Assembly (NCBI GenBank): GCA_002841355.1
Contig: PHFB01000005.1
Location: forward strand, 1 to 64,000
Origin: Actinobacteria bacterium HGW-Actinobacteria-1
Lineage (GTDB): Bacteria > Actinomycetota > Coriobacteriia > Anaerosomatales > Anaerosomataceae
Direction: 5' to 3'
Length of the DNA: 64,000 bases
Part shown: piece after piece, positions 27,154 to 40,182 of the stretch
Layout: each line of letters starts with the position of its first letter
Numbering within the stretch: the first letter of the stretch is position 1
The notes under the pieces: generated by a model
Told to the model about the DNA's origin: nothing
Database searches by the model: none
What the model saw: only the letters and a program-made list of their open reading frames with translations
Program-made: the position numbers and the translations under genes

Positions 27154-27236
27154 CGCGTTGGCGGCCCACGGCAGTATCCCCGCGCGACACTCGGGAATAC
27201 CATGACGTGACAGCCACAGTCTTGGAGGGAGCAAGC

Positions 27237-29918
27237 GTGAAGCGGCGCATCCTGTTCTGGGCCGCGCTGGCTGCCGCCGTGTGGCTCGTTGCGACGCATA
27301 CCGCCGACATCGGGCGGCTGTGGCAGGTCATGCGCGGCGGGGATCCGCGCTGGCTGGTGGGCGCCGCTCTCCTTCAGGTGGCGTACTACGCCTTCTACGT
27401 GTGGACGTTCAAGGCGTCGTTCGAGGCCGTGGGCATCGAGCGACCGTACCGCGAACTTGTGCCGGTGGTGCTCGGCAGCATCTTCGTCAACGTCGTGACG
27501 CCCACCGCCGGAACGGCGGGACCGGCGCTTGTGGTGGACGATGCCGTGCGGCGCGGACATTCGCCGGCGGGTTCAGCAGCCGCCATGGTGCTCACGCAGG
27601 TCGTCGATTTTGCGTCGTTCGCGGTCATCATGACGCTCGGTTTCGTCTACCTGGGAATCGTCGGGCAGCTCAAGAGCTACGAGGTCCTCGCCGCCGTGGT
27701 CCTGCTGGCGCTCATCGCGCTCTTCGCGGGCGCGCTCGTTCTCGCGTTCGTGCGGCCTCCGGCGTTCGTGCGGTTGCTCGGCTGGGTCGCGCGCGTCGTG
27801 CACGGGGGAGCGCGGCTCGTGCGACGCGAGTCGCCGCTCGCGGACGACTGGGCCGAGCGCACCGCCGCCGAGTTCACGTCCTCGGCACGCATGCTTGCCG
27901 AGGAACCCCGCGGCGTGGCGAAGGCCGGCTTCATCGGCGTGGCTGGCTACACGCTCGATCTTGCGGGTCTCATGGCGGTCGGGTACGCGTTCGGCTGGGA
28001 CAAGCCCGGTACGCTGCTGGCGGCGTACGCGGTGGGCGTGCTCGTGTGGATCGTCTCGATCGTGCCGCAGGGAATCGGCGTCGTGGAAGGCGCGATCGCC
28101 GTGGTGCTCACCTCGTTCGGCGTAGCTGTGCCGCAGGCGACAGCGATCTCGCTCGTCTTCCGCGGCATGAGCTTCTGGATCCCGCTGCTCCTCGGCTTCC
28201 TGCTCTTGAGGCGCGTGAGCACGTTCCAGCCGGCCCGTCGCTCCGAAGGTGCCGAGAAGTTCGCGGTTCGTGCCGCCGCGGTCATGACAGCTGCGATCGG
28301 TGTCATCGATGTGCTCTCTGCGGTGACGCCGAACCTGCGTACACGGGTGCTGACGCTCGAGAAGTTCCTGCCGCTGCACGTCCACTACGGGCACCTCGCG
28401 GCCGCGCTTGCGGGCATCGCGCTGATCTTCCTCTCGCGGGGGCTGTGGCGTCGCAAGCGCGCGGCGTGGACCCTCACTGTGGCCCTGCTCGGCGTGTCGA
28501 TCGTGAGCAACCTGGTGAAGGGCCTCGACTACGAAGAGGCGACGATTGCCGCCGGGCTGCTCGCGTGGATGCTCTCCGAGCGCTCCGCGTTCCATGCGCG
28601 CGCCGACGGGCCGTCGCTCGCCCAGGGGCTGAGGGTGCTCACCGCAGCGGTCGTCGGCACGCTCGCATACGGCACGACAGGCTTCTACCTGCTCGACCGT
28701 CATTACTCACTGACGTTCAGCCTCGGGGCGGCGGCGCGCCAGACGATCGTGATGTTCACGCAGTTCTACGACCCGCACCTTGAGCCGCTCACGCGCTTCG
28801 GCCGCTTCTTCGCGGACTCCATCTATGTGGTGGGCGCGGGCACGTTCGGCTACGCGCTCATCATGCTGCTGCGTCCCGTGATCCTGCGCGGCCCGTCCAC
28901 TCCTGCCGAGCGGAACCGCGCGCGGGAAATCGTCGAGCGCTGGGGACGCTCCTCGCTTGCGGCGACGACGCTGCTGCCCGACAAGGCGTACCGTTTCAGC
29001 CCCGGTGGTTCGGTGGTTGCCTTCTCGGTGTACAGCGGCTACGCACTCGCGCTCGGCGACCCGATCGGCCCGCCGGAGGACTTCTCGGCCGCAGTCGCCG
29101 ACTTCGCCCAGATCTGCGCGACGAACGGGTGGACACCGATCTTCTACCAGACGCTCCCTGATGGCATCGCCGAGTATGCCGCACGCGGGTTCAAGTCGGT
29201 GCGCGTGGGCCACGAGGCGGTCGTGGACCTCGACACCTTCTCGATGGCGGGCGGCTCGCACAAGAGCATGCGGAATCGCGTACGGCGGCTCGAGGAGGAT
29301 GGTTTCTCGGCGGTCGTGCACGAGCCGCCCATCGCACCCACGCTCATGCGCGAACTGCGTGGCGTGAGCGACGCGTGGCTGACGATGATGCACGGCACCG
29401 AGAAGCGCTACTCGCTCGGCTGGTTCCTCGACGAGTACATCTCGGCGTGTCCCATCATGGCCGTGCACGGGCCGGATGGTCGTGTCGTCGCCTTCGCCAA
29501 CCTGCTGAGCGAGTACCAACGGCCGGAGTGGACTATCGATCTCATGCGCCATCTCCCCGAAGCGCCGAGCGGCACGATGGACTACATGTTCGTGAAGCTC
29601 TTCGAGTGGTGCCGAGGACAGAACGGGTGCGAGTCGTTCAACCTGGGACTGAGCCCGCTTTCCGACATCGGCCGAGAAGCCCACGATCCGGCCGTGGAGA
29701 AGGTCATGCGCCTCATCTACGACCACGTCGACCAGTTCTACAGCTTCCAGGGGCTGCATGCGTACAAGGAGAAGTTCGATCCGCAGTGGGAGCCACGATT
29801 CCTCGTCTATCCGGCCGGCACCGAGCTGCCGCTTGTCTTCTACGCCCTGGTGAGCGCTGACGCGGGCGAGGGTGTGATCGCCTCGTACCTCAAGACGATG
29901 CGTAGACGCCGTAGCTAG
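27237..29918 (+). CDS. mprF: Phosphatidylglycerol lysyltransferase/flippase, MprF
   Basis: An 893-residue membrane protein of the MprF type. The N-terminal half (about 1-545) has over a dozen hydrophobic helices and the flippase domain (VNVVTPTAGTAGPALVVDDAV; VPQGIGVVEGAIAVVL). The C-terminal 330 residues are the DUF2156 aminoacyl-transferase domain (FSPGGSVVAFSVYSGYALALGDPIG; QGLHAYKEKFDPQWEPRFLVYP). MprF transfers Lys or Ala from a tRNA to phosphatidylglycerol and flips the product outward, reducing surface negative charge and sensitivity to cationic peptides. GTG 27237 was chosen over GTG 27207 because GGAGGG lies seven bases before it. The amino acid used is not predictable. Confidence 0.88.
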   Translation: MKRRILFWAALAAAVWLVATHTADIGRLWQVMRGGDPRWLVGAALLQVAYYAFYVWTFKASFEAVGIERPYRELVPVVLGSIFVNVVTPTAGTAGPALVVDDAVRRGHSPAGSAAAMVLTQVVDFASFAVIMTLGFVYLGIVGQLKSYEVLAAVVLLALIALFAGALVLAFVRPPAFVRLLGWVARVVHGGARLVRRESPLADDWAERTAAEFTSSARMLAEEPRGVAKAGFIGVAGYTLDLAGLMAVGYAFGWDKPGTLLAAYAVGVLVWIVSIVPQGIGVVEGAIAVVLTSFGVAVPQATAISLVFRGMSFWIPLLLGFLLLRRVSTFQPARRSEGAEKFAVRAAAVMTAAIGVIDVLSAVTPNLRTRVLTLEKFLPLHVHYGHLAAALAGIALIFLSRGLWRRKRAAWTLTVALLGVSIVSNLVKGLDYEEATIAAGLLAWMLSERSAFHARADGPSLAQGLRVLTAAVVGTLAYGTTGFYLLDRHYSLTFSLGAAARQTIVMFTQFYDPHLEPLTRFGRFFADSIYVVGAGTFGYALIMLLRPVILRGPSTPAERNRAREIVERWGRSSLAATTLLPDKAYRFSPGGSVVAFSVYSGYALALGDPIGPPEDFSAAVADFAQICATNGWTPIFYQTLPDGIAEYAARGFKSVRVGHEAVVDLDTFSMAGGSHKSMRNRVRRLEEDGFSAVVHEPPIAPTLMRELRGVSDAWLTMMHGTEKRYSLGWFLDEYISACPIMAVHGPDGRVVAFANLLSEYQRPEWTIDLMRHLPEAPSGTMDYMFVKLFEWCRGQNGCESFNLGLSPLSDIGREAHDPAVEKVMRLIYDHVDQFYSFQGLHAYKEKFDPQWEPRFLVYPAGTELPLVFYALVSADAGEGVIASYLKTMRRRRS

Positions 29919-29980: not shown

Positions 29981-30056
29981 GGCCAGGTAGCTCAGTTGGT
30001 AGAGCAGCGGATTGAAAATCCGCGTGTCGGCGGTTCAAGTCCGTCTCTGGCCACCA
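29981..30056 (+). tRNA. tRNA-Phe (GAA)
   Basis: 76 bases fold as a complete cloverleaf. The acceptor stem is GGCCAGG with TCTGGCC, the anticodon stem GCGGA/TCCGC holds loop TTGAAAA (anticodon GAA), and the T-loop is GTTCAAG. CCA is encoded at 30054-30056. The last 45 bases occur again, slightly diverged, at 32086-32130. It has its own promoter and terminator and so is transcribed alone. Confidence 0.95.
30012..30056 (+). repeat. Left copy of tRNA-Phe 3' direct repeat (att-like)
   Basis: These 45 bases from the anticodon loop to CCA match 32086-32130 in direct orientation with three mismatches. This is the usual form of the att repeats that flank DNA integrated at a tRNA gene: the left copy completes a functional tRNA. 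Confidence 0.7.
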
Positions 30057-30067
30057 TACGCACTCAC

Positions 30068-30100
30068 GAAAGCCTCGCCCAAGCGGCGGGGCTTTCTTGC
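30068..30100 (+). terminator. Terminator of tRNA-Phe
   Basis: GAAAGCCTCGCC (30068-30079) pairs over 12 bp (one T-G) with GGCGGGGCTTTC (30085-30096) around CAAGC, then TTGC. It isolates tRNA-Phe from the histidine kinase gene downstream. Confidence 0.85.
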
Positions 30101-30241
30101 GTCGTTGCGTGCGCTCGTGAGCACGAAATGGCGGGCATCTTCATCGAGGAGTACCATGAGTTAGTTTCGTTCACGGTGATTCGCACGTGCCAAAGCCTCC
30201 GTCCTTGTGCGAGGCTTCCCGGCTGCACCAGGGCGGTACCG

Positions 30242-32008
30242 ATGCGCGACACGGTCCATACCGAAATCAGCACAGCCGCGCGGGCACCGGTTCCGCCTCC
30301 GCCTCCTGCGCAGTTCGCTGATGCTGCCACCGCGCTTCTCGGCTGCCGTAGCGCTGTCGAGGTCTACCATGTCATCGGCGATTTCATGACCGAGGTGTGC
30401 CCGGCTTCGATCGTCATCGTCAATGAGATCACGCCCGAGATGACGCATTTCGTCACCCGCGGCCTCTTTGGACTGGAGGATTCGGTCTTTGCAAAAGCGG
30501 CCAGACTGGTGGGCTTCCAAATCATCGACAAGCACTCGGTAATCGTCCCCAAGTACAGGGACCTGATGCTTGGGAGCAAGCTCTCGAAGATCGAAGGCGG
30601 CTTTGCCGAGTTCGCCTCAAGTGAGGTGTCCCCGGCCATCGGAGGGCTAGCGGCTAAACTCGCCGGGATTCGCGATGTCTACACGATCGGGATCGTCGAC
30701 GGTGACTCCATTCTTGGCAACATCCATGTCTGCACCAGGAAGCCAGGTGCTGATGTTCCGGCATCGGTGATTGAACGCTTCGTGCTTCACGTTCATGCGG
30801 CGCTCGCGCGGCTCGCCACCACTCATGACCTCGAGGAGAGCAACGAGCGCTTCCAGCAGGCGGTTCGCACGACGATGGACGGATTCTGGTCGTACGGCGA
30901 GGACGACCGAATTCTTGACGTCAACGAGGCGTACTGCCAGATGAGCGGGTACAGACGTCAGCAGCTCATCGGGATGCACCTCTCTGATCTTGAGGTGATG
31001 GAGACTCCCGAACAGATCGACGCGCACAACCGCCGAATCATCGCGCGAGGGCAGGATCGCTATGTGTCCCAGCATCGTCGATCCGATGGCTCATTCTACG
31101 ATGTCGAGGTGAGCGTTTCGTATCTGCCCGGCGACGGTGGCCGCTTCTCGGGCTTCATACGGGACATCACCGAGCGGAAGCAGGCCGAGGAACGGATTGT
31201 GCGCCTCAACATGGAACTCGAGGAACGCGTCCGAGCACGCACTCGGGAGCTTTCGACCGCAAACATCGAGCTCGTGAACACCAACGCCGAACTTGAGCGG
31301 GCCACCCGCGCCAAGAGCAGCTTCCTTGCATCGATGAGCCACGAGCTCCGTACCCCCTTGAACTCGATCATCGGGTTCACCACCATTCTTCTCAAAGGCC
31401 TTGCAGGACCCATCAACGAAGAGCAGGAAACGCAGCTCTCCATGGTCAGCGAATCCGGCAGGCACCTTCTCTCGTTGATCAACGACGTCCTTGATCTGTC
31501 CAAGATCGAGGCGGGGCGTGCCACGGCGTGCATCGAAGATATCGATCTCGAGTCGCTGATCGAGGCCGTTCGAGACATGGTGGACCCGCTGGCCGACGCC
31601 AAGGGTCTGCAGCTCGTGTTCACGAGTGGGTCGGACGGCGAGCCCCTCAGGTCGGACCCGCGCATGCTGACTCAGATCCTCATAAATCTCGTGGGAAACG
31701 CCATCAAGTTCACGGATTCGGGGACGGTCACACTCGCAGTGTCCGATGATGGTGATGTGATGAGATTCGCGGTCAGCGACACCGGGTGCGGTATCAGCCC
31801 CTCCGACCTGCCCCACATCATGGAGAGCTTCTACCAGGCCGATTTGCCGAATCGGGCCAAGAGTCCGGGCACAGGTCTCGGACTCTCCATATCTTCGCAG
31901 CTTGCGGCCGTATTGGGAGGCAGCCTCAGCGCTGAAAGCGCGCTGGGCGTTGGATCGACCTTCACGCTCACAGTCCCGAAGGTTATGCCCCTCGCGGAAT
32001 CCGGCTAG
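30242..32008 (+). CDS. GAF-PAS sensor histidine kinase, orphan
   Basis: A 588-residue soluble kinase. A GAF-like sensory domain covers about 20-200, a PAS domain about 205-320 (FWSYGEDDRILDVNEAY; FSGFIRDITERKQ), a coiled coil about 320-360, then HisKA with the phosphorylated His367 (MSHELRTPLN), and HATPase_c with N box NLVGNAIKFTD, G1 DTGCGI and G2 GTGLGLSI. No transmembrane helix is seen, so the signal is cytoplasmic. No response regulator is adjacent. ATG 30242 has AGGGCGG upstream; the frame stays open back into tRNA-Phe, but those residues cannot be coding. The gene is the only one between the two tRNA-Phe repeats. It uses rare ATA codons at least three times. Confidence 0.85.
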   Translation: MRDTVHTEISTAARAPVPPPPPAQFADAATALLGCRSAVEVYHVIGDFMTEVCPASIVIVNEITPEMTHFVTRGLFGLEDSVFAKAARLVGFQIIDKHSVIVPKYRDLMLGSKLSKIEGGFAEFASSEVSPAIGGLAAKLAGIRDVYTIGIVDGDSILGNIHVCTRKPGADVPASVIERFVLHVHAALARLATTHDLEESNERFQQAVRTTMDGFWSYGEDDRILDVNEAYCQMSGYRRQQLIGMHLSDLEVMETPEQIDAHNRRIIARGQDRYVSQHRRSDGSFYDVEVSVSYLPGDGGRFSGFIRDITERKQAEERIVRLNMELEERVRARTRELSTANIELVNTNAELERATRAKSSFLASMSHELRTPLNSIIGFTTILLKGLAGPINEEQETQLSMVSESGRHLLSLINDVLDLSKIEAGRATACIEDIDLESLIEAVRDMVDPLADAKGLQLVFTSGSDGEPLRSDPRMLTQILINLVGNAIKFTDSGTVTLAVSDDGDVMRFAVSDTGCGISPSDLPHIMESFYQADLPNRAKSPGTGLGLSISSQLAAVLGGSLSAESALGVGSTFTLTVPKVMPLAESG

Positions 32009-32085
32009 TGCCGTCGCTTGCGTTCTCTTGGCGGGAGAGTCCCAGCGGGCCACTCACATAGGTGGTCCACTCCATTTGCCGTATG

Positions 32086-32130
32086 TTGAGAGTCCGCGTG
32101 TCGGCGGTTCAAGTCGGTCTCTGGCCACCA
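32086..32130 (+). repeat. Truncated tRNA-Phe 3' copy (att-like right repeat)
   Basis: 45 bases match the 3' part of tRNA-Phe (30012-30056) with mismatches only at two positions of the anticodon loop and one in the T-arm. The sequence just before it does not resemble the 5' half of the tRNA, so it is not a functional tRNA. After CCA there is an imperfect hairpin (CCTGCC, AATGT, GGCGGG) that resembles the terminator after the intact gene but lacks its T-run. The wider gap 32009-32304 holds nothing else I can identify. Confidence 0.75.
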
Positions 32131-32304
32131 CAGCAATGACGCAAGCCCTGCCAATGTGGCGGGACTGACCTGTCCCCCCATATCCTGCATCCGTACGCCA
32201 AGTGTGACACCTGTCACGGTGTGGTCACGCGAAGCCAGCCACGCTGGTGCGGTTGATCACGCTTCGCGTGCAACAGCTGTCGCAAACAGGTGAGGAGCCA
32301 CCCA

Positions 32305-32883
32305 GTGTCGAACGTCGTCGTAAAAGGTGTCGTAGCGCAGAGCACCTTCGATTTCATCAAGCAGCAGTATGGCCTGGATGTGTGGGAGCAGTGTCTTTCG
32401 CGGCTTTCGGACGCCGATCGTATCGCCGTCAACGCCGGCGTGAATGTGCCGCTGCAGAGCATGGGTGCCTTCAACGAGGCGTTCGTCGTCGTCGCGTGCA
32501 ACGGATCGCGCACCATGGCGCAAGCCGAGTTCCGCAAGATGGGTGCCGCATCAGCCGAGAAGCTCCTCACCGGCAACGGCATCTTCAGCATCTTCGCGCG
32601 CCTCGTCACACCCAAGCAGGTGTTCACGCGTGCTGCGAGCGTAATCACGAGCGCCTACCCCGGCTGTGACGTTCAGGTCGAGCTCGACTCGGACGAGAGC
32701 GGCGGCATCATCACGATGCGCGGCATGAGCGGGTATCCGTATGGGAGCCAGCGCGTTGTCGGCTGGCTGCTGCGCGGGATCGAACTCGTCGGCGGCAAGA
32801 ACGCCCGAGTGACCGAACGCAACTGGGACGCGGGTCAGACCGACAGCGACACCTACACGATCGTGTTGCACTGGGACGCGTAG
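32305..32883 (+). CDS. H-NOX/V4R-fold-like protein without proximal His (DUF2378-like)
   Basis: A 192-residue protein. The N-terminus (KGVVAQSTFDFIKQQYGLDVWEQCLSRL) resembles that of haem-NO-binding (H-NOX) and the related TIGR02265/DUF2378 and V4R proteins of the NO-signalling/Golgi-transport fold. Near the C-terminus YGSQR (Tyr146, Ser148, Arg150) fits the YxSxR pattern that holds the haem propionates in H-NOX, followed by GWLLRGIELVGG and a final strand TYTIVLHW. The only His is His190, so the axial His of H-NOX is absent and classic haem binding is doubtful. GTG 32305 has TGAGGAGC eight bases upstream; GTG 32290 is an alternative. A strong terminator follows. Family assignment is tentative. 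Confidence 0.6.
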   Translation: MSNVVVKGVVAQSTFDFIKQQYGLDVWEQCLSRLSDADRIAVNAGVNVPLQSMGAFNEAFVVVACNGSRTMAQAEFRKMGAASAEKLLTGNGIFSIFARLVTPKQVFTRAASVITSAYPGCDVQVELDSDESGGIITMRGMSGYPYGSQRVVGWLLRGIELVGGKNARVTERNWDAGQTDSDTYTIVLHWDA

Positions 32884-32924
32884 CTAGCGAGAGCGAGCTG
32901 TTCTCGGTCGATATCAGCACAGCC

Positions 32925-32958
32925 ACGGGCCACTCGGACAGAGTGGCCCGTTCCGTTT
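32925..32958 (+). terminator. Rho-independent terminator
   Basis: ACGGGCCACTC (32925-32935) and GAGTGGCCCGT (32941-32951) form a perfect 11-bp stem with loop GGACA, followed by TCCGTTT. It ends the transcript of the H-NOX-like gene. Confidence 0.85.
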
Positions 32959-33037
32959 ACCGTTCGATGTTCAAGCGGGCGACGGGTTCCGACGATATAC
33001 ATCACAAGGCACGCCGACGCATCAGGAGGTTGGAAGC

Positions 33038-33229
33038 TTGTCGACCGCATCCTTACGCACAGGAACGCTCGATCGCGCGGCCATCAACCGGATTCTCGCA
33101 CGCGTCGACCACCTTGGCGCGCGTGTTCTTGCGGACACCATCCTGGCGACGGACGCGGCGACGAGTCGCGACAATCGCACGTACCATCCTCATTCCGCGC
33201 GAGGCCGAGCCGCCATGCCGACACGGTAG
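33038..33229 (+). CDS. Small hypothetical protein (63 aa)
   Basis: A 63-residue frame starting with TTG 33038, seven bases after an AGGAGGT ribosome site at 33024-33030, which is the main reason to accept it. Residues about 10-42 are predicted helical (LDRAAINRILARVDHLGARVLADTILA); the end is basic and disordered. No family is recognised. It lies in the accessory stretch between two orphan histidine kinases. Confidence 0.45.
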   Translation: MSTASLRTGTLDRAAINRILARVDHLGARVLADTILATDAATSRDNRTYHPHSARGRAAMPTR

Positions 33230-33283
33230 CGGGCTCTACCTGTCTGGCGCCACACCGACCTGATTGCTACAGTGCAGTTCGAC

Positions 33284-33574
33284 ATGGACAAGCTGCTCAG
33301 ATACATCGTTATCGCACTCCTGATCGTGGTCGGCGTGATCGTCTTCGCCGTCTGTAGCGAAGGAGCATGCCCGACGTGCGCCGAACCATGCTGCGGCGGA
33401 GCGCGACGCTCGCAGGCGGTGCGCAGTGTCGACCCGAGCTGCTTCCGGACGTCGGTCGATGGCACGGCCGCTTCGAATGGGTGCTCCCGCGCGGTGCGTC
33501 TACGCCTCGACCGGACGCCCTTGCCCCGCCCGTCCGTCGATGCGATCAGTGAAACGACGGCTCTCAGGATCTGA
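33284..33574 (+). CDS. Small membrane protein with cysteine-rich motif
   Basis: A 96-residue frame. Residues 4-24 are one hydrophobic helix (LLRYIVIALLIVVGVIVFAV), followed by a cysteine cluster CSEGACPTCAEPCCGG (about 24-39) with further Cys residues later. The cluster suggests metal or disulphide chemistry on one face of the membrane, but no family is recognised. ATG 33284 has only a weak ribosome site; GTG 33272 is an alternative. Third codon positions are G/C-rich, as in real genes here. Confidence 0.45.
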   Translation: MDKLLRYIVIALLIVVGVIVFAVCSEGACPTCAEPCCGGARRSQAVRSVDPSCFRTSVDGTAASNGCSRAVRLRLDRTPLPRPSVDAISETTALRI

Positions 33575-33625
33575 GCTGACCCGCGCGAATCCACACCTCG
33601 TCGGAATCCAGGTCAGGAGAATCCA

Positions 33626-34318
33626 ATGCATCGTCGTGCGCAACTCGGTCTTTCGACCGCCGCCCTCATGTTGGCCTCGTCGTTCCCTTCGCCCGCACTC
33701 GCGGCATCTGCCGCGGCAGGCACGAGTGGCGGGAGCGCGTGGTCCGTCCTCCTTATCGTGCTGGTTGTTGTCGTCATCGCGCTGCTTGTCGTGGTCGGCG
33801 TCCTGCTACTCAATCCCGCGAGTGGCGCACAGCACGCCGCGCAAGAGACGGTCGTCCAGGCATCCGAGTCCGAGGCGGTGCCCGCTGAGCGATCCGAGGA
33901 TGCGGACGTGCCAGCGGCATCCACACGCGCGAACGTTGGCAAGCGCAATGCGGTCTCCGTCGCTATCGTTGCAGTATTCGTTATTGGAGCTGTGATCGTG
34001 GTCGGGCAGACGACGAAGCCCACGATGACCGAGGACTCGATCACCCGGGAGTTCACCTCGGCCGAACCGTGCGTCACCGCGCTGATCCCACTCAACGTCG
34101 ACCCGTCCGCCGATCCCCAGGCAGCGGCCGACGCGATCTTCTCGGCGATCGCTCCGCTTCGGGGTCTGACTTCCGGGACGTACGACATCAAGGGTGCCAG
34201 CCTCAAGATCGGGTTCTGCGAATCCGAGACCTCCGAGTCCGCTATCCGGGCCGCCATCGCGCCCACCGGACTGCTCGGAGAAGGCGGTGCTTCGAGCGAG
34301 AGCACACCGCAGCCGTAG
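33626..34318 (+). CDS. Membrane protein with C-terminal ferredoxin-like domain, unknown function
   Basis: A 230-residue protein with a cleavable or anchored signal (residues 7-27), a hydrophobic helix at 38-64, a Glu/Ala-rich linker, a third helix at 110-127, and a C-terminal domain of about 100 residues. That domain has one Cys near the start of a strand (EPCVTALIPLNV) and one near the end of another (LKIGFCESET). Its apparent beta-alpha-beta-beta-alpha order recalls heavy-metal-associated domains, but the CxxC motif is absent. AGGAGA precedes ATG 33626. The preceding gene also encodes a Cys-bearing membrane protein, so the two may work together; this is speculation. Confidence 0.6.
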   Translation: MHRRAQLGLSTAALMLASSFPSPALAASAAAGTSGGSAWSVLLIVLVVVVIALLVVVGVLLLNPASGAQHAAQETVVQASESEAVPAERSEDADVPAASTRANVGKRNAVSVAIVAVFVIGAVIVVGQTTKPTMTEDSITREFTSAEPCVTALIPLNVDPSADPQAAADAIFSAIAPLRGLTSGTYDIKGASLKIGFCESETSESAIRAAIAPTGLLGEGGASSESTPQP

Positions 34319-34414
34319 TGGGCGCAGGTTGACGGGCTTCAGTCTGGCGGCGGTCCGCTCCAACAGGCACAATAATGACATGCGTGCGATGCATCCGAAG
34401 GAGACACCGACGAC

Positions 34415-36673
34415 GTGATCGCGCTTGAAGTCAGAACCGTCTTCACGAGTTCGATCATTCTGACGACGCTGTGCGTCTTCGTCACCATCTCGCTTTGGGC
34501 CAGGAACCGCAAACGCTCACCTGAGATCATCCTGTGGCTGATCAACGCGATCATGCAGGACGTCGCGCTCGTGCTCTTCGCGCTGCGCGGAGTGATTCCA
34601 GACTTCGTTTCGATCATCGTGGCTAACGGGTTGGTCATCGGCGGTACGATGCTGCTCTACGTCGGGCTCGAGCGCTATGTCGGGCGTCGGAGCCGCCAAT
34701 GGGCGAACGGCGTGTTCCTCATCGTGTTCCTGTGTGTGCATGCGTACTTCACCTACGTGCACCCGAATCTCGCGGTCCGCACCGTGAACGCGTCGGCCGC
34801 AATCGTCCTTATCACTGCCGAGTGTGCGTGGCTGTTGCTCCATAGGACGCCGCGCGAAATGCGAACGGTGACCCTGGACCCGGGCCTGGTCTTCCTGGCT
34901 CTGATTCTCGTGAACGCCGCCAAGATTCCGTTCGACATCGCAATCACCGGACAAGACATGCTGAACGCTGGACCGGCGGACGCGCTTGGGCTTGTCCTTA
35001 CGCACATGCTCTTCGTTGCGCTCACATTCTCGCTGTTGCTCATGGTGAACAGGCGCCTGGTTATTGAACTCGAGCAGGACATCGTAGAGCGCGAACGCGC
35101 GCAGGAAGCATTGCGCCTCAGCGAACAGAAGTTCTCGATGGCATTCGAGAACATCCCGGATGCCATCGTTGTGACCGTGGCGGATACGGGCCGGATCATC
35201 GAGGTCAACCAGGGTTTCGTCCGCACGTCCGGCTACACGAAGGAGGAGGCGATCGGGGAGACCACGATCGACCTCGGATTATGGGCCGACCCGGTCAACC
35301 GGGACGAGATGCTCGCAGCGGTCCGTCGCGACGGGCGCGTCACCGACTTCACCGCGAAGTTCCGGGGTCGCTCCGGCCAGGTCTTCGACGCCGTTGTCTC
35401 TTCCGAGTCGATTGTGATCGATGACGAGCCCTGCATTCTCACGATGATCCGAGACGAGACCGAGCGCATCCGTGCCCAGTCGGCCCTCGCTCTGTCCGAG
35501 ATGAAGTTCGCGACCGCCTTCCGCACCTCGCCGGACTCGGTGAACATCAATCGCGTCTCGGACGGCGCGTATATCGATGTCAACGAGGGATTCACAAAGC
35601 TCACCGGGTACCGCCCGGAGGACGTGGCGGGGAAGACATCACGCGATATCGAGATCTGGGTAGATCCGGCGGATCGAGACCGGCTGGTCGCGGGGCTTCT
35701 GGCCGATGGCGTCGTCCACAACCTCGAGGCGCGATTCCGCCGCAAGGACGGCTCGACCACCACCGCGCTCATGTCAGCGCAACTGATCGATGTCGAAGGC
35801 GAGCGTTGCATCCTGTCGGTCACCCGCGACATCTCGGATCGCAAGCGCGCCGAGGATGAGATCCTGCGGCTGAACGCCGAGCTTGAAGAGCGCGTCGAGC
35901 AACGGACGCAGGAGCTGCAGAACGCGCTTGAGGATGTCTCGAGGACGAACGAGGTGCTCACCGAGATGAATGAGCGGCTCGAGCAGGCAACAAGCGCGAA
36001 GAGCGACTTCCTGGCTGCGATGAGCCACGAGCTCCGCACGCCGCTCAACTCGATCATCGGGTTCTCGGACCTGCTGGCGCGGGGAATGGTCGGCGATCTG
36101 AGCCCAGAGCAGGTGAAGCAGATCCGGATGATCAACAGCTCTGGCAAGTACCTCCTCGAGCTGGTGAACGAGGTGCTCGACCTTTCCGCTATCGAAGTCG
36201 GCCAGCTGCGGATCGAGGTGCGGCCCCTGAGCGCGACGCACCTCGCGCGCGCCGTCGTGGACTCGCTCCAGCCGCTTGCGGTGGAGCGCGGGTTGGAGCT
36301 CTCTTGGGACGTCGCGCTCGACGCGGACGCGCTCGAGTCGGACCGTACGCGTCTCGAGCAGATCCTCTTCAATCTTCTCGGCAATGCCATCAAGTTCACA
36401 GACGCTGGCACCGTCAGTCTGAACGTGACCCGCGACGGTGACGATATCCTGTTCTCGATCTCCGATACGGGTCGCGGCATCGCCGATGATGAGCTTGATC
36501 GCGTCTTCGAAGAGTTCTACCAGAGCTCGCGTCTCGACGTTGCCAAGTCCGAGGGAACGGGGCTCGGGCTGACCGTGTCCCGCCGACTCGCCCAGATGCT
36601 CGGCGGCAGCATAGAAGCCGAGAGCGTTGTCGGGCAGGGGTCGACGTTCACCGTGCGCATCCCCGTGCGGTAG
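34415..36673 (+). CDS. Membrane sensor histidine kinase with two PAS domains, orphan
   Basis: A 752-residue kinase. The N-terminal 215 residues hold about seven hydrophobic helices, a possible integral membrane sensor. Two PAS domains follow (about 235-350 and 355-475; ENIPDAIVVTVADTGRIIEV and SPDSVNINRVSDGAYIDV), each ending in an IRDETERIRA- or TRDISDRKRA-type linker. A coiled coil precedes HisKA with His538 (MSHELRTPLNSIIG). HATPase_c has NLLGNAIKFTDAG, DTGRGI and GTGLGLTV. The kinase core is closely similar to that of the kinase at 30242-32008, so the two are probably paralogues. No response regulator or receiver domain is adjacent. The start is GTG 34415 after AAGGAGA. Confidence 0.87.
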   Translation: MIALEVRTVFTSSIILTTLCVFVTISLWARNRKRSPEIILWLINAIMQDVALVLFALRGVIPDFVSIIVANGLVIGGTMLLYVGLERYVGRRSRQWANGVFLIVFLCVHAYFTYVHPNLAVRTVNASAAIVLITAECAWLLLHRTPREMRTVTLDPGLVFLALILVNAAKIPFDIAITGQDMLNAGPADALGLVLTHMLFVALTFSLLLMVNRRLVIELEQDIVERERAQEALRLSEQKFSMAFENIPDAIVVTVADTGRIIEVNQGFVRTSGYTKEEAIGETTIDLGLWADPVNRDEMLAAVRRDGRVTDFTAKFRGRSGQVFDAVVSSESIVIDDEPCILTMIRDETERIRAQSALALSEMKFATAFRTSPDSVNINRVSDGAYIDVNEGFTKLTGYRPEDVAGKTSRDIEIWVDPADRDRLVAGLLADGVVHNLEARFRRKDGSTTTALMSAQLIDVEGERCILSVTRDISDRKRAEDEILRLNAELEERVEQRTQELQNALEDVSRTNEVLTEMNERLEQATSAKSDFLAAMSHELRTPLNSIIGFSDLLARGMVGDLSPEQVKQIRMINSSGKYLLELVNEVLDLSAIEVGQLRIEVRPLSATHLARAVVDSLQPLAVERGLELSWDVALDADALESDRTRLEQILFNLLGNAIKFTDAGTVSLNVTRDGDDILFSISDTGRGIADDELDRVFEEFYQSSRLDVAKSEGTGLGLTVSRRLAQMLGGSIEAESVVGQGSTFTVRIPVR

Positions 36674-36763
36674 TCCGACCAGGACGCCTGACCCGACCTG
36701 CTGCTATCATCGTAGGTCGCGGATGCCGAAATACCTTTCGGATGCATTCGATATGGAGGCGGA

Positions 36764-37936
36764 GTGTCTCGCTGCGCTCGACATGCCAGGATGGGCATTG
36801 TGGCGATGGTTCTTCTCATCGCACTCCTCGCCGCGCCGGCGATCGTGTTCGCACAGCCTTCCGCGATCGACGCCAAGCAGGCCGAGAAGGACGCTGCCAT
36901 CGCAGCTGCCGACGCGCTCCAAAAGAAGCTGACAGCGCAGATCACCGCCTACATCGACATCGCCAAACGCCTTGAGGTGGCTCGTGCCGAGGTCACCGAA
37001 GCTGGCCTGCGCGTGATCGAGTCCGAGGCCGATCTCGAGCGCTCGAAGGCCTCGCTCGAGCAGCGCATCGGGCAGATCTACCGGGGAAGCTCGGTCAACG
37101 CGCTGGAAATGCTGTTCACGGCTTCATCGGTCCAGGAGCTGCTCGACAGGATGAACTACCTCGTGATCATCGGCCGGTATGACAACCGGCTGGTGGAGGA
37201 GATGCGCATCGCGAAGCAGCAGGCGGCGTGGGAGCAGCAGTCTCTTGAGGAGCGCGCAGCTCGCCTTACCGACATGCAGGCCGACGCGGACGCCCAGCGC
37301 GTGCAGATCGAGGCCGCGATCGACGAGCAGCAGGCGAAGATCGCCGCGCTCGACGCTGACATCGCGGAGCTTGTGCGGGCGAGCACGTCATTCGCGCCCG
37401 ATGGCGACTTCTCCCCGAACACCGTCATCTCCGACGCCAACTTCCGAGACGTGGATTCCATGTCCGAGGAAGACGTGCAGCGGTTCCTCGATGCCCAATC
37501 CGGCACGCTCGCCACGTACACGGCGCTCGATCACGCCGGTGTGCGTAAGAGCGCGGCCGCGATGATCGTGGACGCGGCCAGGCAGTGGCGCATCTCGCCC
37601 AAAGTGATCCTCGCGACGCTACAGAAGGAGCAGTCGCTCATCTCGGATCCTACGCCGTCCCAGAACGCGCTCGACTGGGCGATGGGGTGCGGCAAGGCCG
37701 ACACGCACACGGACTACAAGTACCAGGGTTTCGGCAACCAGATCTGGGGCGGAGCGCAGGTGCTCGACAAGAACACGGCTCCCTGGCACGAGGGCATCCA
37801 GATGACGATCGACGGCACGCCCGTGTTCCCCAGCAATGCTTCAACGTACTCGCTCTTCAAGTACACGCCGCACCTGCGGGGCACCACATCGTTCTGGATG
37901 CTCTACTGGCGCTACTTCGGCGACCCGCTCGGCTAG
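36764..37936 (+). CDS. Coiled-coil secreted protein with lysozyme-like C-terminal domain
   Basis: A 390-residue exported protein. The signal peptide ends near residue 31 (AIVFAQ). Residues about 35-215 are a long coiled coil like that of CwlO/PcsB/RipC wall-associated proteins (SLEQRIGQIYRGSSVNALEMLFTAS). Residues about 255-390 look like a peptidoglycan-cleaving domain: SPKVILATLQKEQSLIS offers a candidate catalytic Glu, and WAMGCGKAD and FGNQIWGG follow. Peptidoglycan remodelling is the likely role, but the exact bond is not predictable. GTG 36764 lies four bases after GGAGG. The two-component system gene 38003 follows in the same direction. Confidence 0.75.
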   Translation: MSRCARHARMGIVAMVLLIALLAAPAIVFAQPSAIDAKQAEKDAAIAAADALQKKLTAQITAYIDIAKRLEVARAEVTEAGLRVIESEADLERSKASLEQRIGQIYRGSSVNALEMLFTASSVQELLDRMNYLVIIGRYDNRLVEEMRIAKQQAAWEQQSLEERAARLTDMQADADAQRVQIEAAIDEQQAKIAALDADIAELVRASTSFAPDGDFSPNTVISDANFRDVDSMSEEDVQRFLDAQSGTLATYTALDHAGVRKSAAAMIVDAARQWRISPKVILATLQKEQSLISDPTPSQNALDWAMGCGKADTHTDYKYQGFGNQIWGGAQVLDKNTAPWHEGIQMTIDGTPVFPSNASTYSLFKYTPHLRGTTSFWMLYWRYFGDPLG

Positions 37937-38002
37937 TGGGGCGAGTCACATCGCGAGGCCGACTGTCGTTGTACACTTGAGACAGCCGAAAGGGGAGGTC
38001 GC

Positions 38003-38689
38003 ATGCCGAGGGCACTCGTTGTCGATGATGAGGCCAATATCCGAGAACTCGTGAGTGTGTACCTGTCCGCCTCCGGTTTCGTGGTCGAGCAGGCAGGAGA
38101 CGGGCTCGAGGGACTTCGGCTCGCGGAGTCAGGCGAGTTCGACATCGTCATCCTCGACATCATGCTTCCGGGTATGGACGGCTCGGCAGTGTGTCGTCGA
38201 CTCCGGGAGACTTCCAGTATCCCGGTAATCATGCTGACGGCTCGCGATACGGATCTCGACAAGGTCGCGATGCTTGAGAGCGGTGCCGACGACTACCTCA
38301 CCAAGCCCTTCAGCCCGCCCGAACTCGTCGCCCGGGCGCGCGCAGTGCTCCGGCGCGTCTCGGCCCCAACACAGCCGTCCAGGACCATGAGCATCGGCGG
38401 ACTGTCGCTCGACCCGGCAACGCGCGAGATCTCGGTCGATGGCGTGCCCGTGGAGCTCACCGCCAAGGAGTTCGACGTGCTCGAGGTCATGATGCGCGAC
38501 GCGGGCGTCGTGTTCAGCCGGGAGCGGCTGCTCGAATCGGCCTGGGGCTTCAGCGACTACGTAGACGCGCGCGGCATCGACGTCCACATCAAGCACATTC
38601 GCGAGAAGATCGGCGATGACGCAGGCTCGCCGCGTTTCGTTGAGACGGTCCGAGGAGTCGGTTATCGCGTGCGTCGGGATGCGCAATGA
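38003..38689 (+). CDS. OmpR/PhoB-family response regulator
   Basis: A 228-residue regulator. The receiver domain has acidic residues Asp8 and Asp9, phospho-acceptor Asp52 (VILDIMLPG), a switch Thr in MLTARD and Lys in LTKPF. A winged-helix effector (about 130-225) shows LTAKEFDVLEVMMRD, RERLLESAWG, DVHIKHIREKIG and the final VRGVGYRV. A GGGGAGG site precedes the ATG. It overlaps the kinase gene by four bases (ATGA), so the pair forms one signalling unit. Confidence 0.95.
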   Translation: MPRALVVDDEANIRELVSVYLSASGFVVEQAGDGLEGLRLAESGEFDIVILDIMLPGMDGSAVCRRLRETSSIPVIMLTARDTDLDKVAMLESGADDYLTKPFSPPELVARARAVLRRVSAPTQPSRTMSIGGLSLDPATREISVDGVPVELTAKEFDVLEVMMRDAGVVFSRERLLESAWGFSDYVDARGIDVHIKHIREKIGDDAGSPRFVETVRGVGYRVRRDAQ

Positions 38690-40182
38690 CATCCGAGCTG
38701 GATCCGGCGCGTCGCGGGTCTCTGGTTCGTAGCACCCGTCTGGCATTCGTTGCCGTTGCCGCAGCCTCGGCGCTGGTGGTCTTCTGGGTCTTTTACGTGG
38801 CCTGGACCCAATACACGGTTTCTTTGCGCACGACCGAGCTCTCACGGCAGACCGTCGCGTTGGCGGGTGGACTTGCCGCCGGCGGGCCGCTCACTCAAGG
38901 ATCATCCACGCCGGACGGGGTGCGCCTGCAGCTCTTCCGCGTTCAGGCGAGCCTGATTGGCGCCAGGTTGCTTGTGACGGACGAGGCCGGCAGCGTACAG
39001 ATATCGAGTTCACCGACCACACAGGGGCCGACCGGAATAGGGATCGACGCGCTTGGCAAGACAGATAAGCGCGGCGTGCGCACGGCGGTGCGCACGCTAT
39101 CCGGGGCAGGGCGCGTGCTTGTGGTCGCGGCTCCCATCGAGGGATATCCGGGCTGGCTCGTCGCGCTGCAGCCTGTCAGTGAGATCGCCGCCGCCAACAG
39201 CTGGGTCGTGCTGTTGCTGCTCGGCAGTGCTACAGCCGCGGTGCTCGTTGCCTGGGTCGCGGGGTCGTATCTCGCGCACCGGCTCACGGCACCGGTCCTG
39301 CGGCTGCGGGCAGGTGCCGAGGCGATCACGGCGGGCGAGTGGGGGTATCAGGTGCCCATTGAGGGCGACGACGAGATCGCTTCGCTCGCCGAGTCGTTCA
39401 ATGCGATGTCGGCCCGGGTCGCGGATGCCTACGCTGCGCAGAAGCACTTCGTGGGAGACGTCTCGCACGAGCTGCGCACGCCGATCACGTCCATCCAGGG
39501 ATTCGCGGGCGCCTTGCTCGATGGCACCGTGGAGGATGAGGCGACATCGCGCAGGTTCATCGGCGTCATCAAACAAGAGGCGCAGCGGCTGGGTGACCTC
39601 ACGGCCACGCTGCTCGCGCTCGCGGATCTGGATGCGGGGCGGGTCGAGATCGCGCGCAAGCCGGTCGACGCGGCGGCCCTCGCGGAGTCGCTTCGCGCCC
39701 GGCATGAGGGCGAGGGCGCCTCGGCGGGGCTCACTGTGAACGTCGGCGAGCTTGCGCCCAAGGGGGCTCAGCCGCTCGGTGATGAGGCCCGGGTGCTGCA
39801 GGTCGCATCGGCGCTGATAACGAACGCGCTGCGCTACACGCCGGCGGGCGGTCAAGTCGCGATTTCCGCCGAGGCCGACCGCGGCTCGTGGCGCTTGCTT
39901 GTCGACGATTCCGGGCCTGGCATCTCGCCGGATGACAGGGCGCGCATCTTCGAGCGCTTCGTGCGTTTGGATCCGTCCCGTGCGGCCACCGGCGGCGGCT
40001 CGGGCCTCGGATTGTCAATCTGCTACCGGCTCGTGACGCTCATGGATGGTCACATCTGGGCCGATGAATCCCCGCTTGGCGGCGCGCGTTTCGTGGTGGA
40101 GCTGCCGCGGGCGAGGGCGACTCACTCCACACGAACTCAACGCGAGCGACACACGCAGCCAACCTCCGCGTCCGATAACTGA
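38686..40182 (+). CDS. Sensor histidine kinase (HAMP-HisKA-HATPase)
   Basis: A 498-residue membrane kinase partnering the response regulator at 38003. TM1 lies at about 22-43 and TM2 at about 172-193, and between them is an outer sensory domain of about 125 residues. A HAMP domain follows (about 195-247; LTAPVLRLRAGAEAITAG), then HisKA with His261 (VSHELRTPI) and HATPase_c (NALRYTPAGGQV, DSGPGI, GSGLGLSI). The layout fits a sensor of envelope or extracellular signals. Two small secreted proteins encoded downstream may be part of the regulon or the stimulus. Confidence 0.93.
   Translation: MTSELDPARRGSLVRSTRLAFVAVAAASALVVFWVFYVAWTQYTVSLRTTELSRQTVALAGGLAAGGPLTQGSSTPDGVRLQLFRVQASLIGARLLVTDEAGSVQISSSPTTQGPTGIGIDALGKTDKRGVRTAVRTLSGAGRVLVVAAPIEGYPGWLVALQPVSEIAAANSWVVLLLLGSATAAVLVAWVAGSYLAHRLTAPVLRLRAGAEAITAGEWGYQVPIEGDDEIASLAESFNAMSARVADAYAAQKHFVGDVSHELRTPITSIQGFAGALLDGTVEDEATSRRFIGVIKQEAQRLGDLTATLLALADLDAGRVEIARKPVDAAALAESLRARHEGEGASAGLTVNVGELAPKGAQPLGDEARVLQVASALITNALRYTPAGGQVAISAEADRGSWRLLVDDSGPGISPDDRARIFERFVRLDPSRAATGGGSGLGLSICYRLVTLMDGHIWADESPLGGARFVVELPRARATHSTRTQRERHTQPTSASDN

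Follow-up and report, generated by a model that had tools for sequence, protein, structure and literature searches.

A probable integrase-less kinase cassette at tRNA-Phe, a worn member of a little-noticed gene-capture hotspot in an actinobacterial order

The histidine kinase gene downstream of tRNA-Phe in Actinobacteria bacterium HGW-Actinobacteria-1 probably represents the cargo of a small cassette that lacked an integrase of its own and was integrated site-specifically at the tRNA gene, at a locus that has seen at least two such events. The unit in the window (the whole 64,000-nucleotide stretch analyzed here) would be one worn member of a little-noticed tRNA-Phe gene-capture hotspot found across the order. 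Stacks of cassettes at tRNA genes are already known; what is unusual are the arrays of integrase-less cassettes across the order and the inverted half of the cognate tRNA.

In the proposed mechanism, a circular cassette would carry the 3′ half of tRNA-Phe (from the anticodon loop to CCA) along with a terminator, and a tyrosine integrase would recombine it into the chromosomal tRNA-Phe at its anticodon loop. The cassette’s copy would restore the tRNA, and the old 3′ end would be displaced 2.07 kb downstream. At least two insertions would have occurred in this manner, the first bringing the gene at 32305-32883 and a later one bringing the kinase (Table 1).

Table 1. Features of the tRNA-Phe locus, numbered from the first base of the window. 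G numbers denote compared genomes.
Feature	Position	Strand	Basis
tRNA-Phe (GAA), putative integration target	29981-30056	+	ARAGORN; 3′ part from the newest cassette in the proposed model
Putative attL core, spanning tRNA-Phe from its anticodon loop through the CCA end	30012-30056	+	Direct repeat, boundary analysis
Left flank of cassette 1 with terminator-like hairpin	30057-30100	+	31 of the first 40 bases identical to a cassette flank in G050 (other family)
Cargo of cassette 1, PAS histidine kinase, 588 aa	30242-32008	+	ORF, Pfam, relative in G039
ACATAGGTG, possible remnant of right-end arm motif GACATACGTGACA (weak resemblance, could be coincidental)	32056-32064	+	Sequence, motif
Displaced tRNA-Phe 3′ end, putative attR of cassette 1 and left edge of cassette 2	32086-32130	+	42/45
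Decayed terminator and left flank of cassette 2	32131-32175	+	Flank comparison
Cargo of cassette 2, 192 aa, DUF2378/TIGR02265-like (sub-threshold)	32305-32883	+	Homologue in G043
First gene of the older neighborhood, also present in G004 (68% aa) and bounding the inserted region	33626-34318	+	
Conserved response regulator, syntenic anchor at the far side of the variable slot	38003-38689	+	Pairs with kinase 38686-40182

The tRNA-Phe gene and its displaced 3′ end

An earlier note, made by reading the sequence by itself, had reported that the last 45 bases of tRNA-Phe recur downstream with three mismatches and without a 5′ half, and both observations were reproduced once the tRNA had been placed by ARAGORN. 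The second copy was direct and 93% identical, a match for which the chance expectation over the whole window and both strands was about 1e-13. It started at tRNA nucleotide 32, and the 31 positions upstream of it agreed at only 9. A hairpin followed each copy, as had also been described, although the one behind the second copy was degenerate; the resemblance is explained by a tRNA terminator that comes with every cassette. The second copy was mutated in the crossover region of the anticodon loop (TTGAGAG versus TTGAAAA in tRNA-Phe), which suggests that excision has probably been lost. As both this repeat and the ends of the unit were decayed, the unit is probably now immobile.

The kinase and the ends of its cassette

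Between the repeats, the only long open reading frame was that of a histidine kinase with PAS, HisKA and HATPase_c domains and no receiver domain (the ATG at 30242 is the presumed start, and longer starts exist). This agreed with the earlier description of a bracket holding only a histidine kinase and no integrase. The kinase had been called a GAF-PAS protein, of which the PAS part stood, but no GAF model of Pfam matched even at E ≤ 1.

The only close relative of the kinase was found in G039, a genome of another family (contig JAGXFU010000015.1), at 80% nucleotide identity over 869 bp and 77% amino acid identity, and the next closest among 84,980 species genomes searched reached at most 57%. 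Identity of the anchor response regulator across genera and families was only 67% (G010), 63% (G043) and 62% (G028). Judged by these comparisons, the kinase appears to be horizontally shared. The G039 copy was frameshifted and sat in an array about 10 kb downstream of that genome’s tRNA-Phe; no recognizable att copy was found directly beside it. The frameshift and the lack of an adjacent att copy count against the preferred reading.

The window cassette matched neither the left-end nor the right-end model of better-preserved cassettes, and its left end did not match the target tRNA’s 5′ half in inverted, interrupted form. In place of the right-end arm, composed of GACATACGTGACA and CCTGCAACAGTTC, only the weak ACATAGGTG was present. 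As its ends match neither model, descent of the window cassette from the same element family can be traced only indirectly; either its ends decayed, or it was moved by a different integrase with the same target.

A probable second, older cassette in a variable slot

The bracket had been described as a possible integrated unit, a reading that is supported, but its second repeat appears to head a second, older cassette and not the native edge of the chromosome. The 40 bases past position 32130 shared 30-31 positions with att-copy flanks in G043, G050 and G039, all of other families, versus 10-22 positions in four genomes of the same genus (10 in G001, 15-22 in the others). The shuffles used for this flank comparison, like those for the left ends, preserved base composition only. 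Among the retrieved loci, the gene behind them was related only to one in G043 (68-70% aa), which lies directly behind the second att copy there. The flank matches and this homologue together indicated that the window holds two cassettes. In comparison with shuffles, neither a right end of the older cassette nor a third att copy stood out in window positions 32140-38000, nor did att remnants downstream in G004, G003, G043 and G014.

The variable slot was defined as the DNA between tRNA-Phe and the response-regulator/kinase pair (38003-40182 in the window). It was shortest in G009 (0.1 kb), followed by G005 (1.6 kb), G010 (2.9 kb), G003 (7.0 kb), G004 (7.8 kb) and the window (7.9 kb), and longest in G043 (8.9 kb), which belongs to another family. 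Comparison with relatives, which the earlier note had proposed, yielded an empty site in G009, and the arrangement is not universal. The closest syntenic relative, G004, kept the order of CWB2 protein, tRNA-Phe, the counterparts of gene 33626, kinase 34415 and gene 36764, regulator and kinase, with another kinase standing where the window’s stands and the gene at 32305 absent. This conserved order with differing tRNA-adjacent genes indicated that the slot grows beside the tRNA.

On the other side of the tRNA, a lysylphosphatidylglycerol synthase-like gene (903 aa, 27207-29918) lay between the CWB2 gene and tRNA-Phe. It occupied the same place in G014, was upstream of tRNA-Phe in G001 and was absent there in G003 and G004, a patchiness indicating that the upstream side varies as well.

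tRNA-Phe 3′ ends across the order

When 69 genomes of the order were searched with a pattern that allowed three mismatches, 60 had a tRNA-Phe 3′ end and about 15, belonging to 9 of 16 families, had extra ones; these counts depend on the pattern, and the genomes were mostly draft MAGs, in which arrays may be broken or misjoined. All extra copies that shared a contig with the full tRNA were direct and downstream of it. Measured against each genome’s own tRNA, 17 of the 23 extra copies started at nucleotides 28-34, in the anticodon loop (median 30), and the other six started later and looked decayed. Tandem copies occurred in G039, G062, G029 and G028. Some contigs stopped at a repeat copy, as is expected for repeats in short-read assemblies. 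The boundary common to most extra copies in many genomes strengthened the earlier interpretation of the window repeats as a footprint of site-specific integration.

Segmental duplication, which had been left open on account of the hairpins, would have copied the tRNA 3′ end by replication slippage or unequal recombination with no mobile DNA involved. It would explain a hairpin behind both copies, but most copies in many genomes shared one starting position in the anticodon loop, and every copy found was a 3′ half. Moreover, the flanks of the two window copies matched different cassettes of other families, and the bracketed gene appears to be horizontally shared. Since duplications would not start repeatedly at one nucleotide, this explanation was unsupported, and we consider it extremely improbable.

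RecA-dependent homologous uptake of circular or linear DNA bearing a tRNA-Phe 3′ end would require no dedicated enzyme, and the identities of 45-48 bp among tandem arrays would be compatible with it. However, the sharp boundary in the anticodon loop and the conserved arm motifs at the ends pointed to a tyrosine integrase, and 45 bp is short for RecA-mediated exchange. We judge uptake without a site-specific recombinase to be very unlikely. The preferred reading, a non-autonomous unit integrated site-specifically, had already been raised in the earlier note and was backed by the shared boundary, by empty and differently filled sites, and by the placement of the kinase’s only close relative in the array of another family.

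Complete units measured 0.8-4 kb, lacked an integrase and contained from one to a few genes. Histidine kinases occurred in the window unit, in G039 (two) and in G028 (one), and G029 held a PAS-GAF-SpoIIE phosphatase and an MNT-HEPN pair. Other cargo comprised AbiE-like pairs in G014 and G064 (weak PADLOC matches), a Fic protein in G056 matching PADLOC SoFic, an MFS protein with an ArsR-type regulator in G043, and an MFS protein with DUF190 in G062. By our own ORF picking, cargo was co-oriented with the tRNA in every unit with identifiable genes except that of G056.

One tRNA-Phe 3′ half in G039 (contig C13, L106:6735-6782) had conserved cassette ends on both sides and no tRNA gene within the 14 kb retrieved; it may reflect a misassembly or an array located apart from its tRNA. 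Genes upstream of it matched the candidate defense family PDC-S11.

Conserved cassette ends and an inverted tRNA half

In nine left ends, the terminator was followed at +116 to +148 by an inverted 5′ half of tRNA-Phe, each scoring above all 300 shuffles; none was found at empty or terminal sites. In gapped alignment, the inverted copy ran from nucleotide 1 toward the anticodon loop, and most copies contained an insert of about 40-52 nt near nucleotide 25. The same architecture was found at tRNA-Lys(ctt) in G001, G002 and G014, with an inverted 5′ half of tRNA-Lys that ended at nucleotide 34. These halves scored 45-50 against tRNA-Lys versus 28-33 against tRNA-Phe.

The tRNA-Lys(ctt) loci (L151:1070-1240 in G002, L152:7532-7700 in G014 and L153:4984-5151, minus strand, in G001) carried the inverted 5′ half together with the arm GACATACGTGACA and belonged to integrase-bearing elements. 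In G014, the distance to the displaced 3′ half was 21 kb and the integrase was 55% identical to that of G024; G002 had the same parts split over two contigs.

Right ends had GACATACGTGACA and CCTGCAACAGTTC in common ahead of the core. In G028, a G024-like integrase (67%, with one stop codon) ended directly before a right end of this type and a decayed core. The left-end model gave strong matches within the order and three weak ones outside it among 296 genomes sampled from the phylum, mostly outside the order; as it was built from these same sequences, its scores on them are not independent. Rfam searches of four cassette loci returned tRNA genes only, and a conserved RNA at the left ends was rejected as a candidate, as folding gave mainly the terminator hairpin.

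A search of open-licence papers returned no description of an inverted cognate tRNA half at the end of an element, and a literature search for tandem gene cassettes at a tRNA anticodon loop likewise returned nothing. We put forward only tentatively, as less likely than not, an order-wide, integron-like capture system on tRNA-Phe and tRNA-Lys in which a tyrosine integrase acting in trans stacks integrase-less cassettes and the inverted 5′ half with its 40-50 nt insert is a working part of attP.

Integrases at tRNA-Phe

Integrase-bearing elements were found at the same tRNA. G024 carried a 10.9 kb tRNA-Phe unit with a 307-aa integrase and hsdM, hsdS and hsdR of a type I restriction system, and in G040, a 438-aa integrase adjoined a tRNA-Phe 3′ end. 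A search for integrase relatives in viral contigs returned none. The 32 kb viral contig L183 (IMGVR_UViG_3300038679_000076) had a tyrosine integrase directly before CTGAAAATCCCC and the 3′ half of tRNA-Phe, counted from its anticodon loop, a layout that is a probable phage attP for tRNA-Phe.

These elements and the probable phage attP, together with the decayed ends of the window unit, would suit an originally larger, autonomous island or prophage that inserted at tRNA-Phe with its own integrase and later lost this integrase and most other genes by deletion. This reading is unlikely, although it is the strongest rival, as integrase-less units of one or two genes recurred in many genomes with both ends intact (G050, G039, G028), and small units moving as such are more plausible than independent deletions that each halt shortly before both ends. 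For the small cassettes, we infer that a circular form existed and that integrases either worked in trans or were deleted once the cassettes had integrated; as integrase-less cassettes and the G024 element have common ends, action in trans would be the simplest reading.

Relation to known systems

Three crossover positions are known for tyrosine integrases that target tRNA genes, one of them being the anticodon loop, and integrase-dependent tRNA islands have been catalogued by Islander, whose definition demands an integrase gene (PMC4383910). The window unit resembles those islands in its putatively element-restored tRNA, its crossover class and its intact tRNA with a displaced 3′ fragment downstream in the same orientation. 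It also varied in presence among relatives, with G009 and G010 lacking the unit and other kinases in the slot of G003 and G004. However, Islander islands carry an integrase, whereas the 2.07 kb window unit has one gene and no PF00589 match between tRNA and fragment; units of this kind are therefore filtered out.

Additive flexible genomic islands share with the present locus a conserved tRNA as the target of a growing cassette stack, as reported in Alteromonas (PMC4119200) and at tRNA-Lys(ctt) of Ca. Methylopumilus (PMC10872708). The Methylopumilus repeat ACCAGCTGAGCTAATCCCCC is, by our own reading, the reverse complement of a tRNA-Lys 5′ end and in this resembles the inverted 5′ halves described here. 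Neither paper names an att structure or an inverted half, whereas the present arrays are resolved into single cassettes with shared ends and a mapped crossover. Tycheposons are likewise tRNA-bordered cargo elements moved by tyrosine recombinases, but they span 4-200 kb and include the recombinase (PMC10872708), and the window unit has neither that size nor a recombinase.

Integron cassettes and CALINs are also head-to-tail, small, recombinase-less units, mostly co-oriented and rich in toxin-antitoxin and unknown genes. They differ in their recombination site; the flanking repeat here, judged from its identity, is a tRNA-Phe 3′ half and not attC, and the host’s integron integrase lies elsewhere. 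Phage satellites of the PICI type combine an integrase with packaging or capsid-hijacking genes, and the bracket held a single kinase gene. Trans-mobilized hitcher elements have been reviewed (PMC11389934). Units of this kind escape, by design, any island finder that requires an integrase or that treats inverted tRNA fragments as noise. If the trans-mobilized reading is true, the order would gain sensor kinases, toxin-antitoxin pairs and transporters singly at a fixed tRNA, in parallel to integrons. The inverted half of the cognate tRNA, located at the end of elements, offers a concrete, testable feature of the attachment site.

Recombinases of the host genome

A search for a tyrosine recombinase elsewhere in the genome had been suggested as a check. 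The window assembly (2.44 Mb, 98% complete) encoded XerC, XerD, an integron integrase and one phage-type integrase, but none of the G024 clade, for which only Xer-type matches were returned; this absence counts against the preferred reading. The phage-type candidate (L042:1195-2058, G000:C21:390038-390595) lay just behind tRNA-Lys and tRNA-Glu, and no second copy of the tRNA-Glu 3′ end turned up within 12 kb. The integron integrase is an unlikely enzyme for the cassettes, as their repeat is a tRNA half and integron integrases also occurred in genomes with a single tRNA-Phe 3′ end. Its own locus (L109:1480-2454, G000:C5; TIGR02249, 482 bits with a cut-off of 265) was followed by several small ORFs and is possibly an integron; two of the proteins encoded downstream start with the same MRKCV peptide.
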